From: Acidobacteriota bacterium
Lineage (GTDB): Bacteria; Acidobacteriota; Terriglobia; Terriglobales; Acidobacteriaceae
Assembly (NCBI GenBank): GCA_021780415.1
Contig: JAJXYW010000139.1
Coordinates: 1-9,458 of the forward strand
Reading direction: 5' to 3'
Length of the DNA stretch: 9,458 bases
Every line of letters begins with the position of its first letter. Positions within the stretch are counted from its first letter, which is position 1. Positions 514 to 6,080 of the stretch are shown in pieces. The notes under the pieces were generated by a model, which worked only from the letters and a program-made list of their open reading frames with translations, did not search any database and was not told the origin of the DNA. The position numbers and the translations under genes were made by a program.

Positions 514-1290
514 ATGGTGGATCCAGACCGCATCCATTTTTCAGCGCTTGAGCAGTTGGTCCTCTCCGTGCCATCGATCCAGCGCCTGCTCACCGCCTGC
601 GCCCTCGGCGGCGCCATCGGCCTCGAGCGCGAGTGGCGTCACAAGGACTCCGGCCTCCGCACCAACATGCTCATCTGCATGGGCTCGGCGCTCTTCACCA
701 TCATGAGCGTCGTCCTCGCCGGCGACAACTCCCCCAACAAAGGTCAGGTCGCCTCCAACATCGTGCAGGGCGTCGGCTTTCTCGGCGCGGGCCTCATCCT
801 GCACACCAAAAATCGAGTCCTCGGCCTCACCAGCGCAGCCACCGTCTTCGTCGTTGCGGCCATCGGCATGACCTGCGGCGCGGGCCTCTACATCGTCGCC
901 GCCCTCGCCACCTTACTGGTCCTCGTAGCTCTGCAACTCGTCGGTGCGTTCGAGAGCCGTCTCGGCTGGAAGCGCTATCCCATGATCTACGAAGTCCGCG
1001 CCGACGTTGGCTCCATGCTCCCCGAGAACGTCGTCGGCGCCGACCGCGCCGAGGCTCTCGCCGCAGACATCTCCGCTGCCCGCAACCGCATGCAACTCGC
1101 CATCCTCAAAGTCCTCGACGCCTCCGGCCAACGCCTCACCGTGCAGGACCGCGACAACGTCGCCGGCATCGAGCGCGTCTCCTTCACCCTCAAGACCACA
1201 GCCCGACAACACGAGCACCTGCTCAACCAGTTGCGCGCCAGCGACGAAGCCGATCAGGTCATCATGTTCCCAGACTCGGAGGAAGAATGA
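514..1290 (+). CDS. MgtC/SapB family membrane protein
   Basis: The protein has 258 residues. The hallmark MgtC/SapB motifs are visible: GGAIGLEREWR at 32-42, GLRTNMLICMGSALF at 47-61, VQGVGFLGAGLIL at 84-96 and GLTSAATVFVVAAIG at 104-118, followed by a further hydrophobic segment at about 124-146. This gives about four or five membrane segments. Residues about 155-255 form a charged, probably cytosolic C-terminal domain, in the position where many MgtC proteins carry an ACT-like domain. Family members act at the inner membrane; Salmonella MgtC is needed at low Mg2+ and inside macrophages and is reported to inhibit the F1Fo ATPase, but most environmental homologues have no known role. An in-frame TAG at 499-501 rules out a longer start. 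Its TGA overlaps the next gene's ATG by four bases, so it heads the peptidoglycan-recycling unit. A Mg2+ transport role should not be assumed. Confidence 0.9.
   Translation: MVDPDRIHFSALEQLVLSVPSIQRLLTACALGGAIGLEREWRHKDSGLRTNMLICMGSALFTIMSVVLAGDNSPNKGQVASNIVQGVGFLGAGLILHTKNRVLGLTSAATVFVVAAIGMTCGAGLYIVAALATLLVLVALQLVGAFESRLGWKRYPMIYEVRADVGSMLPENVVGADRAEALAADISAARNRMQLAILKVLDASGQRLTVQDRDNVAGIERVSFTLKTTARQHEHLLNQLRASDEADQVIMFPDSEEE
1278..1285 (+). promoter_or_regulatory. Strong ribosome binding site of the dapF-like gene
   Basis: GGAGGAAG lies just before the ATG at 1287, inside the last codons of the mgtC-like gene. Together with the ATGA overlap it fixes the dapF-like start and predicts translational coupling. 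Such a clear Shine-Dalgarno is rare in this window. Confidence 0.7.
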
Positions 1291-2099
1291 GCCGCATCGG
1301 CTTCGTCAAAGCGCACGCCTGCGGCAACGACTTTCTCATCATCGAAGAGAGCCTTGCCCACGGCAACCACGCCGCCCTCGCCCGCAAGCTCTGCAGCCGC
1401 AACACCGGCATCGGCGCCGACGGCATCGAGTTTTTAGACCGTCGCCCCGACAACTCCTTCTTCCTCCGCCTCTTCAACGCCGACGGCAGCGAAGCCGAAC
1501 TCAGCGGCAACGGCACCCGCTGCGTAGCCGCCTGGCTGGCCGCCAGCGAAGGCCTCCACGAAGTCGCACTCGCCACCCACGGCGGCGTCCGCACCTGCCG
1601 TCTCATCCGCCGCGACGACGTCGACTACTGGATCGAAAGCAACATGGGCATCCCCCGCGTGATGCCCCGCACCATCGAAATCCCCGGCATCAGCGCCCCC
1701 ATCTCCGGCGCCATGGTCAACGTCGGCAACCCCCACTTCGTTCTCTTCCCAGACTCCGACGACTTCAGCAGCCACCACCTTACCTGGCAACAACTCGGCG
1801 CCCTCATCGCCATCGACCCGCTCTTTCCCCACGGCACCAACGTCGAGTTCGTCCGCATCCTTTCGCCCACTGAAATCGCCTTCCGCATCTACGAGCGCGG
1901 CTGCGGCCCCACCACCTCCAGCGGCACCGGCACCTGCGCCTCATCGGCCGCGTCCATGTTCCTCCACAACACTGCCCGCTCGCTCACCGCCATCGCCCAG
2001 GGCGGAACCCAGCAAGTCGTCTGGCCCACCAACTCCAGCGAGATGCTCCTCACCGGCCCAGCCGAAATCATCTGCACCGGCGAGGTAGACCTTGCCTGA
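1287..2099 (+). CDS. dapF: Diaminopimelate epimerase family protein with both catalytic cysteines replaced by serine
   Basis: The protein has 270 residues, the normal DapF length (about 274 in Haemophilus influenzae). DapF interconverts LL- and meso-diaminopimelate in the cytoplasm using a cysteine pair as base and acid. Family landmarks are present in order: HACGNDF (10-16, Asn14), GIGADG (41-46), NADGSEAE (64-71), GNPHF (147-151), GTNVEFV (183-189), YERG (202-205) and SGTGTC (212-217). The substrate-binding residues Asn14, Asn64, Asn148, Asn185, Glu203 and Arg204 are all there. However, the first catalytic position, normally Cys in (Q/M)CGNG, is Ser73 (AGC at 1503-1505), and the second, normally ACGTG, is Ser212 in SSGTG. 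Pro208 also replaces the usual Glu of the GET motif. The nearby non-catalytic cysteines Cys79 and Cys217 are kept, and the frame is intact, so decay is unlikely. The start is the ATG behind the GGAGG; upstream in-frame codons would run through mgtC. Family membership is sure, DAP epimerase activity is not. Confidence 0.85.
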   Translation: MSRIGFVKAHACGNDFLIIEESLAHGNHAALARKLCSRNTGIGADGIEFLDRRPDNSFFLRLFNADGSEAELSGNGTRCVAAWLAASEGLHEVALATHGGVRTCRLIRRDDVDYWIESNMGIPRVMPRTIEIPGISAPISGAMVNVGNPHFVLFPDSDDFSSHHLTWQQLGALIAIDPLFPHGTNVEFVRILSPTEIAFRIYERGCGPTTSSGTGTCASSAASMFLHNTARSLTAIAQGGTQQVVWPTNSSEMLLTGPAEIICTGEVDLA

Positions 2100-3009
2100 T
2101 CCCGTCACACCGCGCCCCAGACTCCAGCAGGGAAGCCGCATCGCCATCGTCTCCCCCGCCTCCGCCGCCAAACCCGAACTAGTAGCCCAAGGCAGCGCAG
2201 CGCTCAAGGCCTACGGCTACGACCCCCTCATCATGCCTCATGCCCTCGACCGCGGCCCGCTCTACTACGCCGGTACCGCCGCCGACCGCATCGCAGACCT
2301 CCACTCCGCCTTCGCCGACCCCACCATGGACGCCATCCTCTGCACCCGCGGCGGCTGGGGCTCCGCCGAACTCCTCCCCCTCCTCAGCGCCGATCTCATC
2401 CGCGCCAACCCCAAAGTCTTCGCCGGCTACAGCGACCACACCTCGCTCCACGTCTACCTCTGGAACCTCTGCCAACTCCCCACCTTTTACGCCCCCATGG
2501 CCGCCGCCGACTGGTCCAACCCCATCGGCGTCGATGACCGCACCTGGCGCGCAGCCCTCCACGCCGAAACCCCCTGGTCCGTCTCCGCCGCCGACGGCCT
2601 CCGCACCCTCCGCCCCGGCCGCGCCGAAGGCCGTCTCCTCGGCGGCTGCCTCTCCATCCTCATCGAATCCCTCGCCACCCCCTTCGCCCTCAACCTGACC
2701 GAACCCACCATCCTCTTCCTCGAAGACATCCACACCAAGCCCTACCAGTGGGACCGCATGCTCCAGCACCTTCACTTCGCCGGCCTACTGCGCAACGTAC
2801 AGGGCATCGTCTTCGGAGACCCGGCCTCCAACATCCAGCCCTCCGAACTCCCTCTCCTCGAAGCCGCCTGCCTCCACGCTCTCGCCGACTTCCACGGCCC
2901 CATCGCCATCGGCCTCCAATCCGGCCACATGGCCTCCCACAACCGCTCCCTCCCCCTCGGCGCCTGGGTCACAATGCAAGACAACACACTAAGCGAGCAA
3001 ACGAAGTGA
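2092..3009 (+). CDS. ldcA: Muramoyltetrapeptide (LD-)carboxypeptidase, peptidase family S66
   Basis: The protein has 305 residues, close to Pseudomonas LdcA. The enzyme removes the terminal D-Ala from cytoplasmic murein tetrapeptide, leaving L-Ala-D-Glu-meso-DAP for reuse. The family's Ser-Glu-His triad is recognisable: Ser114 in GYSDHT, Glu211 in LFLEDIHTKPYQWDRML, and His279 in SGHMASHNRSLPLG. The N-terminal RIAIVSPAS (16-24), the CTRGGWGS loop (84-91) and RLLGGCLSIL (181-190) are also typical. There is no signal peptide, consistent with a cytosolic recycling enzyme. The start is a TTG at 2092, eight bases inside the dapF-like gene, preceded by GAGGT at 2082-2086; the conserved RIAIVSPAS begins 16 residues later, so little of the protein can be missing. 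The next gene, mpl, uses the tripeptide product. A role on microcin-like substrates (the MccF branch of S66) is possible but less likely given mpl next door. Confidence 0.93.
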   Translation: MPDPVTPRPRLQQGSRIAIVSPASAAKPELVAQGSAALKAYGYDPLIMPHALDRGPLYYAGTAADRIADLHSAFADPTMDAILCTRGGWGSAELLPLLSADLIRANPKVFAGYSDHTSLHVYLWNLCQLPTFYAPMAAADWSNPIGVDDRTWRAALHAETPWSVSAADGLRTLRPGRAEGRLLGGCLSILIESLATPFALNLTEPTILFLEDIHTKPYQWDRMLQHLHFAGLLRNVQGIVFGDPASNIQPSELPLLEAACLHALADFHGPIAIGLQSGHMASHNRSLPLGAWVTMQDNTLSEQTK

Positions 3010-4475
3010 GCAACAACTCCACACCCACAACACCCCGGCACATCCACCTCATCGGCATCTGCGGCACAGCCATGGCCTCACTCGCCGGAATGCTCCGCGC
3101 CCAGGGCCACCGCGTCACCGGCTCCGACACCGCAGCCTACCCGCCCATGTCCGACCAACTCCGCGAGATGGGCATCCCCATCCTCGAGCCCTTCAGCCCC
3201 GCCAACCTCACCCCCACCCCCGACCTCGTCGTCGTCGGCAACGCCATCTCGCGCGGCAACCCCGAGCTCGAATTCATCCTCGACCGTCTCCCCTCCGAGC
3301 GCATCCCCATCACCTCCATGGCCGCCCTCATCCACGACGAATTCCTCGCCCACCGCGAGCGTCTCGTCATCTGCGGCACCCACGGCAAGACCACCACCAC
3401 CAGCATGCTCAGTTGGATCTACGAGGTCGCCGGCCGCACCCATCCGCAATACACCCCGTCCTTCCTCATCGGCGGCGTAGCCGAAAACTTCCGCACCAGC
3501 TTCCGCGTCCACCCCGAATCCCGTACCTTCATCCTCGAAGGCGACGAGTACGACACCGCCTTCTTCGACAAGGGACCCAAGTTTCTCCACTACTTTCCCG
3601 ACGCCGCCATTCTCACCCACGTCGAGTTCGACCACGCCGACATCTACGCCGACCTCGCCGCCGTCAAGACCGCCTTCAAGCGCATGGTCAACCTCATCCC
3701 CCGCCGTGGCCGCCTCATCGCCTTCGACGCCAACCCCAACGTCACCGAGTGCTGCGCCCGTGCCTTCTGCAACGTCGAGCGCTACGGCCTCCTCCCCGAC
3801 TCCTATTGGCAAGCCACCAACCTCCACCAGCGCGGCTCCACCACCACCTGGACCCTCCTCCGTGGCGGCGAAGAGTTCGCCCGTCTCACCCTCCCCATGG
3901 CCGGCGAGCACAACGCCCTCAACGCCACCGCCGCCGCCGCCCTCGCCGCCGGTCAGGGCGTCCCCACCGCCGCTATCATCGAGGCCCTCGCCACCTTCCA
4001 GTCCGTCAAGCGCCGCCTCGAAGTCCGCGCCGAAGTCGCCGGCGTCACCCTCATCGACGACTTCGCCCACCACCCCACCGCCATCCGCGAGACCCTCCGC
4101 GCTCTCCGCGCCGCCTATCCCGGCCGCCGCCTCTGGGCCGTCCTCGAACCTCGCTCCAACACCCTCCGCCGCAACGTCTTCGAGCGCGAGCTGGTCGACT
4201 CCCTTGCTCTCGCCGACGAAGTCGTCCTCGCCGCCGTCTTCAAAAGCGAAGCCATCCCCGCTCTCGAGCGCCTCGACCCCGACCACGTCCTCTCCGCCCT
4301 CACCACCCGCAACATCCCCGCCGTCCTCTGCGCCGACGCCGACGCCATCGTGGCCAACATCACCCCCCGTCTCCGTCCCGGCGACATAGTTGCCATCCTC
4401 TCCAACGGCGGCTTCGGCAACATCTACGAAAAACTCCCCGCCGCCCTCACCCCACCCCAAACCCCGTCATCCTGA
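3006..4475 (+). CDS. mpl: UDP-N-acetylmuramate:L-Ala-gamma-D-Glu-meso-DAP ligase (murein tripeptide ligase)
   Basis: Mpl uses ATP to join recycled tripeptide to UDP-MurNAc, bypassing MurC, MurD and MurE. The protein has 489 residues (E. coli Mpl 457) and resembles it throughout: a nucleotide-sugar-binding start HLIGICGTAMASL (14-26), TGSDTAAYPPMS (38-49), VVGNAISRGNPELE (77-90), the Mur-ligase ATP loop GTHGKTTTT (124-132), LEGDEYDTAFFDK (177-189), HVEFDHADIY (205-214), AGEHNALNA (299-307), KRRLEVR (335-341), DDFAHHPTAI (351-360), EPRSNT (381-386) and LSNGGFGNIYEKL (465-477). FAHHPTAI, EPRSNT and SNGGFG match Mpl rather than MurC. The start is a GTG at 3006 overlapping the ldcA stop by four bases (GTGA) with only a weak upstream GCGAG. 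Further in-frame upstream codons would overlap ldcA. The last residues (PSS) and the stop are encoded by a dispersed repeat. Confidence 0.95.
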   Translation: MSNNSTPTTPRHIHLIGICGTAMASLAGMLRAQGHRVTGSDTAAYPPMSDQLREMGIPILEPFSPANLTPTPDLVVVGNAISRGNPELEFILDRLPSERIPITSMAALIHDEFLAHRERLVICGTHGKTTTTSMLSWIYEVAGRTHPQYTPSFLIGGVAENFRTSFRVHPESRTFILEGDEYDTAFFDKGPKFLHYFPDAAILTHVEFDHADIYADLAAVKTAFKRMVNLIPRRGRLIAFDANPNVTECCARAFCNVERYGLLPDSYWQATNLHQRGSTTTWTLLRGGEEFARLTLPMAGEHNALNATAAAALAAGQGVPTAAIIEALATFQSVKRRLEVRAEVAGVTLIDDFAHHPTAIRETLRALRAAYPGRRLWAVLEPRSNTLRRNVFERELVDSLALADEVVLAAVFKSEAIPALERLDPDHVLSALTTRNIPAVLCADADAIVANITPRLRPGDIVAILSNGGFGNIYEKLPAALTPPQTPSS

Positions 4476-5087: not shown

Positions 5088-6080
5088 ATGCGTTTCAAGA
5101 TCAGCAGAAACCTCTCCTCCCTCTGCCTCCTGCTCCCGATCCTGCTGCTAGCCTGCGCCCGCACCGTACCCCCACCCCAGCCTCCGCCTCCCGACGTCAT
5201 CGCCCGCGTCACCGCCGCCAAGTCCATCTTCCTCTCCAACGCCGGCGTCAACGACTACTTCGCCAGCGAGATCCCCGGCGGCCCCAACGTCGCCTACAAC
5301 GAGTTCTACGCGGCCCTTCAGCAGTGGGGCTACTTCCAGCTAGTCGACTCGCCCGCCCACGCCGACCTCATCCTCCAAATCCGTGGCACCGAGCAGATGC
5401 CACAACTCGAGCGCACCGGCATTGCCCTCGATCAGGCCGTTGCCATTCAGCACTTGCCCATGCTCGAACTCTCCATCCTCGACCCCTCCACCCTCGCCCC
5501 CATCGACATCCTCACCCTCCCCGCCAGCCGCGGCCCCAACATCCCAAAAGGCGCCGCCGCCTTCGCCAACTCCATCGAATGGCTCGCCTACAAACTCAAG
5601 CTCCTCGTCGCCACCCCTCCCCGTCCCCCGGCCACCCTTCAGGCCTCCGCCTCGCGGCCCGCTCACCCGCCGCTCACGCAATCCATCGCCCCCATTCCGC
5701 CGCAGGTCCTCCACGCCAAAAACGTCTTCGTCGAAACCACCGCCCCACCCAACGACCACTACTACAAAGCCTTCACCGCGGCCCTCACCACCTGGGGCTA
5801 CTACCACCTCGTCGACACCCCGCAAGCCGCCGACATCGTCTTCGACTTCCATAATGAGACAGCCAGCGGCATCAATAATGACGACGCCAACGGCATCTAC
5901 GTCACCCTCCACCCACCCGCCAGCAAAGTCATCCTCTGGACCGTCACCGACCCACACTACGGCCTCTACGGCTACGACGGCCACTACCGCGTCAACGCGC
6001 TCACCCGCAACCTCATCAGCGCCTTCAAGCAGCTAAACCACATCCCCCTCACCCCCGCCGAAACCACCGCCCTCCGCTAA
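5088..6080 (+). CDS. Predicted lipoprotein with two related halves, function unknown
   Basis: The protein has 330 residues. It begins with a lipoprotein signal peptide: basic MRFKISRN, a hydrophobic core (11-21) and the lipobox LLAC with the lipid-attachment Cys at 23, so it is expected to be exported and anchored in a membrane. A proline-rich linker (27-35) leads to the first domain (about 40-175). A second proline-rich stretch (177-205) leads to the second domain (about 206-318). The halves are homologous: FYAALQQWGYFQLVDSPAHA (73-92) matches FTAALTTWGYYHLVDTPQAA (229-248), both after an AKxxF strand (44-48 and 210-214). Similar AK-x-x-F...AAx-x-WGxxxLVxxPxxADL proteins appear, from memory, in many acidobacterial genomes with one copy of the domain. 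No catalytic motif is recognised. It is a single gene with a good GGAGG site, divergent from the DUF3592-like gene. Confidence 0.88.
   Translation: MRFKISRNLSSLCLLLPILLLACARTVPPPQPPPPDVIARVTAAKSIFLSNAGVNDYFASEIPGGPNVAYNEFYAALQQWGYFQLVDSPAHADLILQIRGTEQMPQLERTGIALDQAVAIQHLPMLELSILDPSTLAPIDILTLPASRGPNIPKGAAAFANSIEWLAYKLKLLVATPPRPPATLQASASRPAHPPLTQSIAPIPPQVLHAKNVFVETTAPPNDHYYKAFTAALTTWGYYHLVDTPQAADIVFDFHNETASGINNDDANGIYVTLHPPASKVILWTVTDPHYGLYGYDGHYRVNALTRNLISAFKQLNHIPLTPAETTALR

Follow-up and report, generated by a model that had tools for sequence, protein, structure and literature searches.

The DapF-type protein encoded in the analysed stretch of DNA (9,458 nucleotides of an acidobacterial contig, called the window below) carries serine at both positions at which diaminopimelate (DAP) epimerase has its catalytic cysteines. 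From sequence comparison we estimate with a probability of about 0.8 that it is the organism's housekeeping epimerase for the conversion of LL-DAP to meso-DAP, in a Ser/Ser form whose serines would act as acid and base. The fold, the serines at the N-ends of helices, the kept DAP pocket, the sole copy in relatives and the convergent origin of the Ser/Ser form were shown by computation and support this reading. More broadly, there is a reasonable case that a large part of one phylum relies on a two-serine DAP epimerase which removes an alpha-proton without a cofactor and which arose from the thiol form on at least two occasions, with the donor cysteine lost first, and that a second phylum is at a Cys/Ser half-way stage.

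The DapF-type gene of the window

The gene (Table 1) is an intact open reading frame (ORF) that starts with ATG and contains no stop. Its product scored 196.8 bits against TIGR00652 (cut-off 114.65), which is above the equivalog score for DapF, and showed the two PF01678 domains and the fold of DapF. PF01678 was the sole Pfam family matched at E ≤ 0.001; no Pfam family of the proline racemase superfamily was matched, no additional domain was detected with Pfam or NCBIfam, and the model of bifunctional DapF/glutamate racemases (NF038284) gave 73.1 bits with a cut-off of 350. Among the best 80 of 580 stretches encoding a relative, the nearest was 80% identical, and the source organism was taken to be an acidobacterium.

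Table 1. Features of the window (positions on the forward strand)
Feature	Position	Strand	Basis or remark
MgtC-family membrane protein	514..1290	+	PF02308, 124.9 bits; 4-base overlap with start of dapF-like gene
Ser/Ser DapF-type protein, 270 aa	1287..2099	+	TIGR00652
Asn14, DAP contact, kept	1326..1328	+	89/89 in main Ser/Ser clade
Asn64, DAP contact, kept	1476..1478	+	89/89 in main Ser/Ser clade
Ser73 codon AGC, first catalytic Cys position	1503..1505	+	HMMER alignment; residue preceding helix 74-88 in model
Asn148, DAP contact, kept	1728..1730	+	89/89 in main Ser/Ser clade; Val/Ile/Leu in the four nested Ser/Ser rows and likewise in numerous Cys/Cys rows
Asn185, DAP contact, kept	1839..1841	+	89/89 in main Ser/Ser clade
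Glu203-Arg204, DAP contacts, kept	1893..1898	+	89/89 each in main Ser/Ser clade
Ser212 codon AGC, second catalytic Cys position	1920..1922	+	HMMER alignment; residue preceding helix 213-227 in model
LD-carboxypeptidase (peptidase S66)	2092..3009	+	PF02016, PF17676; 8-base overlap with end of dapF-like gene if first start is used
Mpl-type UDP-MurNAc : L-Ala-gamma-D-Glu-meso-DAP ligase	2748..4475	+	TIGR01081, 413.5 bits (cut-off 388.7)

It had originally been predicted that serine replaces cysteine at both catalytic positions. This was confirmed by translation of the ORF, by the AGC codons and by HMMER alignment to solved DapF chains, in which SGNGTRC of the window stood opposite CGNGIRC and SSGTGTC opposite ACGTGAC; the alignment thereby put Ser73 and Ser212, and not other cysteines, at the catalytic positions. 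In the computed structural model, each serine sits at the N-terminal end of one of the two central helices. The thiol-thiolate pair of DapF is accordingly absent, and the PROSITE pattern PDOC01029, as quoted in the accessible part of PMC8225329, is broken at its cysteine, which is Ser73 in the window, while the remaining pattern positions fit. Because the protein lacks both the cysteine pair and the pattern, it was classed as a Ser/Ser variant related to DapF, and most likely works like DapF. A sequencing error was ruled out, since Ser/Ser was found in 160 of 297 genomes of the phylum and was encoded by five different Ser codons at each site. Likewise, the view that the gene is not a pseudogene stood, given the intact ORF, the wide occurrence of Ser/Ser and the purifying selection that was evident from dN/dS values of 0.18-0.37 against the window gene in four of six comparisons (dS was not computable in the other two).

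For C. glutamicum DapF, the accessible part of PMC5296763 lists Asn15, Asn74, Asn85, Asn159, Asn194, Glu212, Arg213 and Thr223 as DAP contacts. Mapped by motif and order, the window protein has Asn14, Asn64, Asn75, Asn148, Asn185, Glu203, Arg204 and Thr214. The contacts named in the original prediction (Asn14, Asn64, Asn148, Asn185, Glu203 and Arg204) were all present, as were Cys79, Cys217 and Pro208. Throughout the main Ser/Ser clade (89 of 89 rows) Asn14, Asn64, Asp66, Asn75, Asn148, Asn185, Glu203, Arg204 and Thr209 were conserved, and the smaller Ser/Ser groups differed at few pocket positions, namely Asn148 in four nested rows and Asn75 in four of the eight rows of the third group.

Distribution and origins of the Ser/Ser form

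One scan of a genome collection yielded 580 stretches that encoded a relative. Of these the best 80 loci were kept, and record titles together with likeness assigned 24 of the 80 to the acidobacteria or Aminicenantes. Among these 24, 23 were Ser/Ser and L010 was broken across the first motif with Ser at the second, and the other 56 of the best 80 comprised 55 Cys/Cys loci and one Cys/Ser locus (L048). With regard to oxygen tolerance as a possible driver of the swap, five loci titled Aminicenantes, a mostly anaerobic group, were Ser/Ser as well. The original prediction had suggested searching the organism's own genome for a second, canonical dapF; relatives were searched in its place, and none was found in the 24 close and 13 further genomes. 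A single gene exceeded the PF01678 cut-off in 23 of the genomes of the 24 close loci (G022 had two, both Ser/Ser) and in all 13 of the further genomes with Ser/Ser, including G178, G239 and G263, whose main contig represents approximately the whole genome. Sub-cut-off matches to part of the model (about 22-25 bits) lay in other frames of 329-360 amino acids in G002, G004, G005, G263 and G271.

For a census, 297 genomes were drawn from a larger group, the phylum of Acidobacteriaceae bacterium TAA 166 (genome G003, locus L003). TIGR00652 matched in 280 of them, and the genes were located and read at both sites. Ser/Ser was the only state in 152 genomes, Cys/Cys in 111 and Cys/Ser in six, eight genomes had Ser/Ser together with Cys/Cys, and three were fragmentary (G264, G280, G309); 'only' means here that TIGR00652 matched no other gene at E ≤ 0.001. 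With 160 Ser/Ser carriers, the suspected lineage-wide acidobacterial variant was thus borne out. In 15 genomes two matches were counted as halves of one divergent gene, in agreement with a PF01678 search. Many census genomes are probably metagenome bins, in which the absence of a second gene weighs less, and single-contig genomes are the best ones for this argument. Neither TIGR00652 nor PF01678 detected a DapF homologue in the remaining 17 of the 297 genomes (G036, G068, G071, G093, G102, G113, G127, G150, G154, G163, G186, G245, G267, G283, G304, G306 and G312), which may be incomplete or use another route.

Of the eight genomes with both forms, seven combined a divergent Cys/Cys gene (CSNGSR ... 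CCGTG) with a Ser/Ser gene from a clade of its own, marked by SG[ND]G and ASGSS, and the Cys/Cys match of the remaining one, G184, contains an in-frame TGA. As Ser/Ser stands beside a Cys/Cys homologue in these genomes, it need not be the epimerase there and may have another role. The divergent Cys/Cys form (loci L181-L194, L196 and L241-L247) was also the sole copy found in some genomes. The six acidobacterial genomes with Cys/Ser DapF (L327, L381, L384, L401, L450 and L451) fell into three places of a quick tree of 332 rows and are possible half-way forms.

One other phylum was sampled, that of G319, the genome of L048, which has one PF01678 gene with Cys/Ser. Here 60 of 68 genomes matched TIGR00652, and from these 36 genes (L048:79-912, L283-L312, L474-L478) were read at both sites, all 36 with Cys73/Ser212, in agreement with three one-site fragments. 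The whole second phylum therefore appears to have a Cys73/Ser212 DapF.

All trees were calculated with the catalytic columns 73 and 212 masked. A 173-row tree, chosen from 254 ORFs and the window after leaving out duplicates, the frame-broken L010 and L104, the truncated L195 and most non-acidobacterial loci, required three changes to Ser/Ser, two of them forced by starred branches. A mixture-model tree of 66 of these rows gave the same result, and Ser/Ser formed one clade in 0% of 200 bootstrap trees. Holding all Ser/Ser rows as one clade cost 81 log units and was rejected (AU p = 8e-9). The two larger groups could be held together without rejection (AU p = 0.42), so that the safe number of Ser/Ser origins is two and not three. 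Ser/Ser was thus shown to have arisen at least twice, and a swap that arose more than once suggests that serines can do the job.

The 332-row tree comprised census rows of at least 230 amino acids already scored as Ser/Ser, Cys/Cys or Cys/Ser, 15 of the 30 loci L283-L312 and 15 non-acidobacterial loci; with this pre-selection the tree alone cannot show the absence of Ser/Cys. Seven Ser/Ser genes grouped together with an SH-aLRT of 100, nested among Cys/Cys and Cys/Ser genes, and Cys/Ser required four changes, three of them forced, in this quick tree with long-branch warnings. Ser/Cys was observed in none of the 254 ORFs, the 180 loci and the 280 matching census genomes. The swap probably led from Cys/Cys via Cys/Ser to Ser/Ser, with the proton donor, which would be chemically easier to replace, changing first. 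A lipoprotein-like gene (named from sequence only) lies directly upstream of four nested Ser/Ser genes and of 11 Cys/Cys genes, and this shared neighbour points to a Cys-to-Ser switch at one locus.

Across the Ser/Ser rows, serine was encoded by TCN or AGC at either site. The AGC codon of Ser212 in the window was shared with only two of 172 other Ser/Ser rows, most of which had TCN. Unless two bases are exchanged at once, a switch between TCN and AGC has to pass via a Cys or Thr codon.

Pathway context, gene neighbours and alternative functions

LysA requires meso-DAP, and lysA exceeded its cut-off in 28 of 43 genomes searched; it did so in 26 of the 34 genomes counted as Ser/Ser and stayed below the cut-off in the other eight, where the counts include G010, read at the second site only, and G015, whose lysA hit has an internal TGA. 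Of 24 genomes, 22 had a MurE above the cut-off (21 Ser/Ser genomes and one Cys/Ser), and all 22 had the DNPR motif, which we take to be that of the DAP-adding MurE. A bypass through DAP dehydrogenase was rejected, as no match exceeded the cut-off in the 24 genomes (five sub-cut-off matches had 19-23 bits). With LysA and DNPR-type MurE present and DAP dehydrogenase missing, LL-DAP must still be epimerised. A DapL-type aminotransferase was matched with more than 400 bits in 16 of 43 genomes, in none of the 43 over the curated cut-off of 593.

The MgtC-like gene was found upstream in 10 Ser/Ser loci, window included, and an LD-carboxypeptidase-like gene downstream in 19 Ser/Ser loci other than the window (by eye, for cluster representatives). 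A gene similar to the Mpl gene, which lies two genes downstream of the dapF-like gene in the window, was found downstream in 28 Ser/Ser loci, window included. Among 101 Ser/Ser rows, again counting the window, this amounts to at least 28 with Mpl and at least 20 with LD-carboxypeptidase, these being lower bounds owing to short flanks. The TIGR01081 match begins at residue 98 of the Mpl ORF, with the conserved part from about 3039; the longest ORF starts about 290 bases earlier (2748-3038), within the LD-carboxypeptidase gene, and the true start is probably later. In 15 loci (L015, L016, L018, L022, L026, L113, L115, L123, L127, L131, L132, L136, L147, L150 and L165), among them the five titled Aminicenantes, a gene for an HtrA/DegP-like protease, named from sequence, is located upstream of the Ser/Ser gene. 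A 330-residue ORF of the window (5088-6080) had no Pfam or NCBIfam match at E ≤ 0.001; it is flanked by a DUF3592 ORF on one side and, on the other, by an ORF resembling DNA polymerase III alpha, the latter identified from its translation only.

The most serious alternative, which we consider unlikely, is that the Ser/Ser protein acts otherwise on DAP, on a DAP peptide or on another amino acid, and that meso-DAP comes from a non-homologous enzyme that has escaped recognition. The neighbouring cell-wall recycling genes for LD-carboxypeptidase and Mpl make a muropeptide substrate conceivable, the same fold hosts histidine, O-ureidoserine and diaminobutyrate racemases as well as a dehydratase, and the eight two-copy genomes would fit. 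However, the recycling neighbours occur in part of the set, the DAP-contact residues are invariant in the main clade, and roughly one half of the sampled phylum would have to possess an unknown epimerase whose loss or gain coincided with the switch at least twice. A different reaction would also leave the Ser/Ser genomes without any known source of meso-DAP, and the same holds for a catalytically dead sensor of DAP or muropeptides, which we regard as highly improbable. Such a sensor would agree with the loss of both thiols from a retained pocket and with the overlapping MgtC-like gene, but in 152 of 297 genomes no DapF homologue other than the Ser/Ser protein was found, DAP dehydrogenase is missing as described, the window protein has no further domain, and serine was retained at both sites through five codons, which is unexpected for a dead site. 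Even less credible is the substitution of the missing cysteines by another thiol: Cys12, proposed originally for its place two residues ahead of Asn14, fails because it is not conserved (29 of 89 in the main clade, 0 of 12 in the other Ser/Ser groups), Cys79, although present in 86 of 89 proteins of the main clade, is just as fixed in Cys/Cys proteins (45 of 45), is missing from all eight proteins of one Ser/Ser group and in the model would lie inside helix 74-88 away from its N-end, and Cys217 varies. The position of Pro208 was Glu in 42 of 89 proteins of the main clade, and neither Cys12 nor Pro208 holds as a part of the Ser/Ser variant. The Ser/Ser epimerase, one of the options raised at the outset, is supported by its being the sole DapF homologue in most carriers, by a pathway that needs an epimerase and by the convergent swap.

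Proposed mechanism and relation to known enzymes

In textbook DapF chemistry two catalytic cysteines are required, and as an acid a serine hydroxyl is much weaker than a thiol. In Anabaena DapF, as described in the accessible part of PMC12039745, LL-aziDAP is bound covalently through Cys75 and DL-aziDAP through Cys224, and closure expels water. Mapped onto the window by analogy, residue 73 would face the L-centre and residue 212 the D-centre. DAP binding would close the two domains and expel water. The alpha proton would be taken by Ser73, whose side is turned to the L-centre in the aziDAP complexes, and Ser212 would give a proton back at the opposite face, so that in the biosynthetic direction residue 73 would be the base and residue 212 the proton donor. 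The donor may be replaceable by a hydroxyl with less loss, which would fit the repeated finding of Cys/Ser and never of Ser/Cys.

Catalytic serines are described in the accessible part of PMC4113996 for the sister proline racemase superfamily, with a Ser93/Cys236 epimerase and a Ser90/Thr256 dehydratase, and by analogy these would be a precedent for a serine base at the N-terminal-domain site. Against the proposed mechanism, the accessible parts of three papers report that activity was greatly reduced in HisR C67S and C209S (PMC11602996), that it was abolished in PddB with both cysteines substituted (PMC8225329) and that C. glutamicum DapF C83A and C221A were almost inactive (PMC5296763). Among the 40 most divergent positions listed, none besides 73 and 212 separated all three Ser/Ser groups from Cys/Cys, and no partner residue that would make Ser73 basic was common to all Ser/Ser groups. 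Ala82, found in 82 of 89 proteins of the main clade, is mostly Arg or Lys in Cys/Cys proteins and Arg in both other Ser/Ser groups.

If the reading as a Ser/Ser epimerase is true, thiols are dispensable for DapF chemistry, and Ser/Ser enzymes should resist oxidation, aziridines and other thiol-directed inhibitors; cysteine-alkylating DapF inhibitors would be expected to miss them. How a base as weak as a cysteine thiolate removes a proton of pKa ~29 is described in the accessible part of PMC12039745 as unusual, the pKa values being seemingly mismatched. Cys/Cys, Cys/Ser and Ser/Ser forms of a single pathway enzyme, found partly at the same syntenic locus, make a natural series that would be a ready-made experiment on this question. 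Enzymes that depart from the published active-site pattern go unnoticed when annotation relies on TIGR00652.

No paper on a serine-type DapF was found in a search that ran largely without subscription papers and is thus weak evidence of novelty. A search on the cell-wall chemistry of acidobacteria, which covered listings of papers, yielded no statement on the stereochemistry of DAP. DapF proteins of TIGR00652 with solved structures (H. influenzae 1gqz, C. glutamicum 5m47, Anabaena 9mro) have two catalytic cysteines, in contrast to the two serines of the window. The engineered variants C73S (2q9h) and C217S (2q9j), presumably of H. influenzae DapF, are laboratory single mutants by their structure titles, whereas both residues are Ser in the window protein, which is natural and under selection. 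PhzF (1u1w), an isomerase of phenazine biosynthesis whose catalytic residue is acidic, was 13% identical to the window protein. The 4-hydroxyproline 2-epimerase B9JQV3 (Ser/Cys), which retains one cysteine, and the 3-hydroxyproline dehydratase B9K4G4 (Ser/Thr), both from the accessible part of PMC4113996, act on other substrates and showed about 15% identity each.
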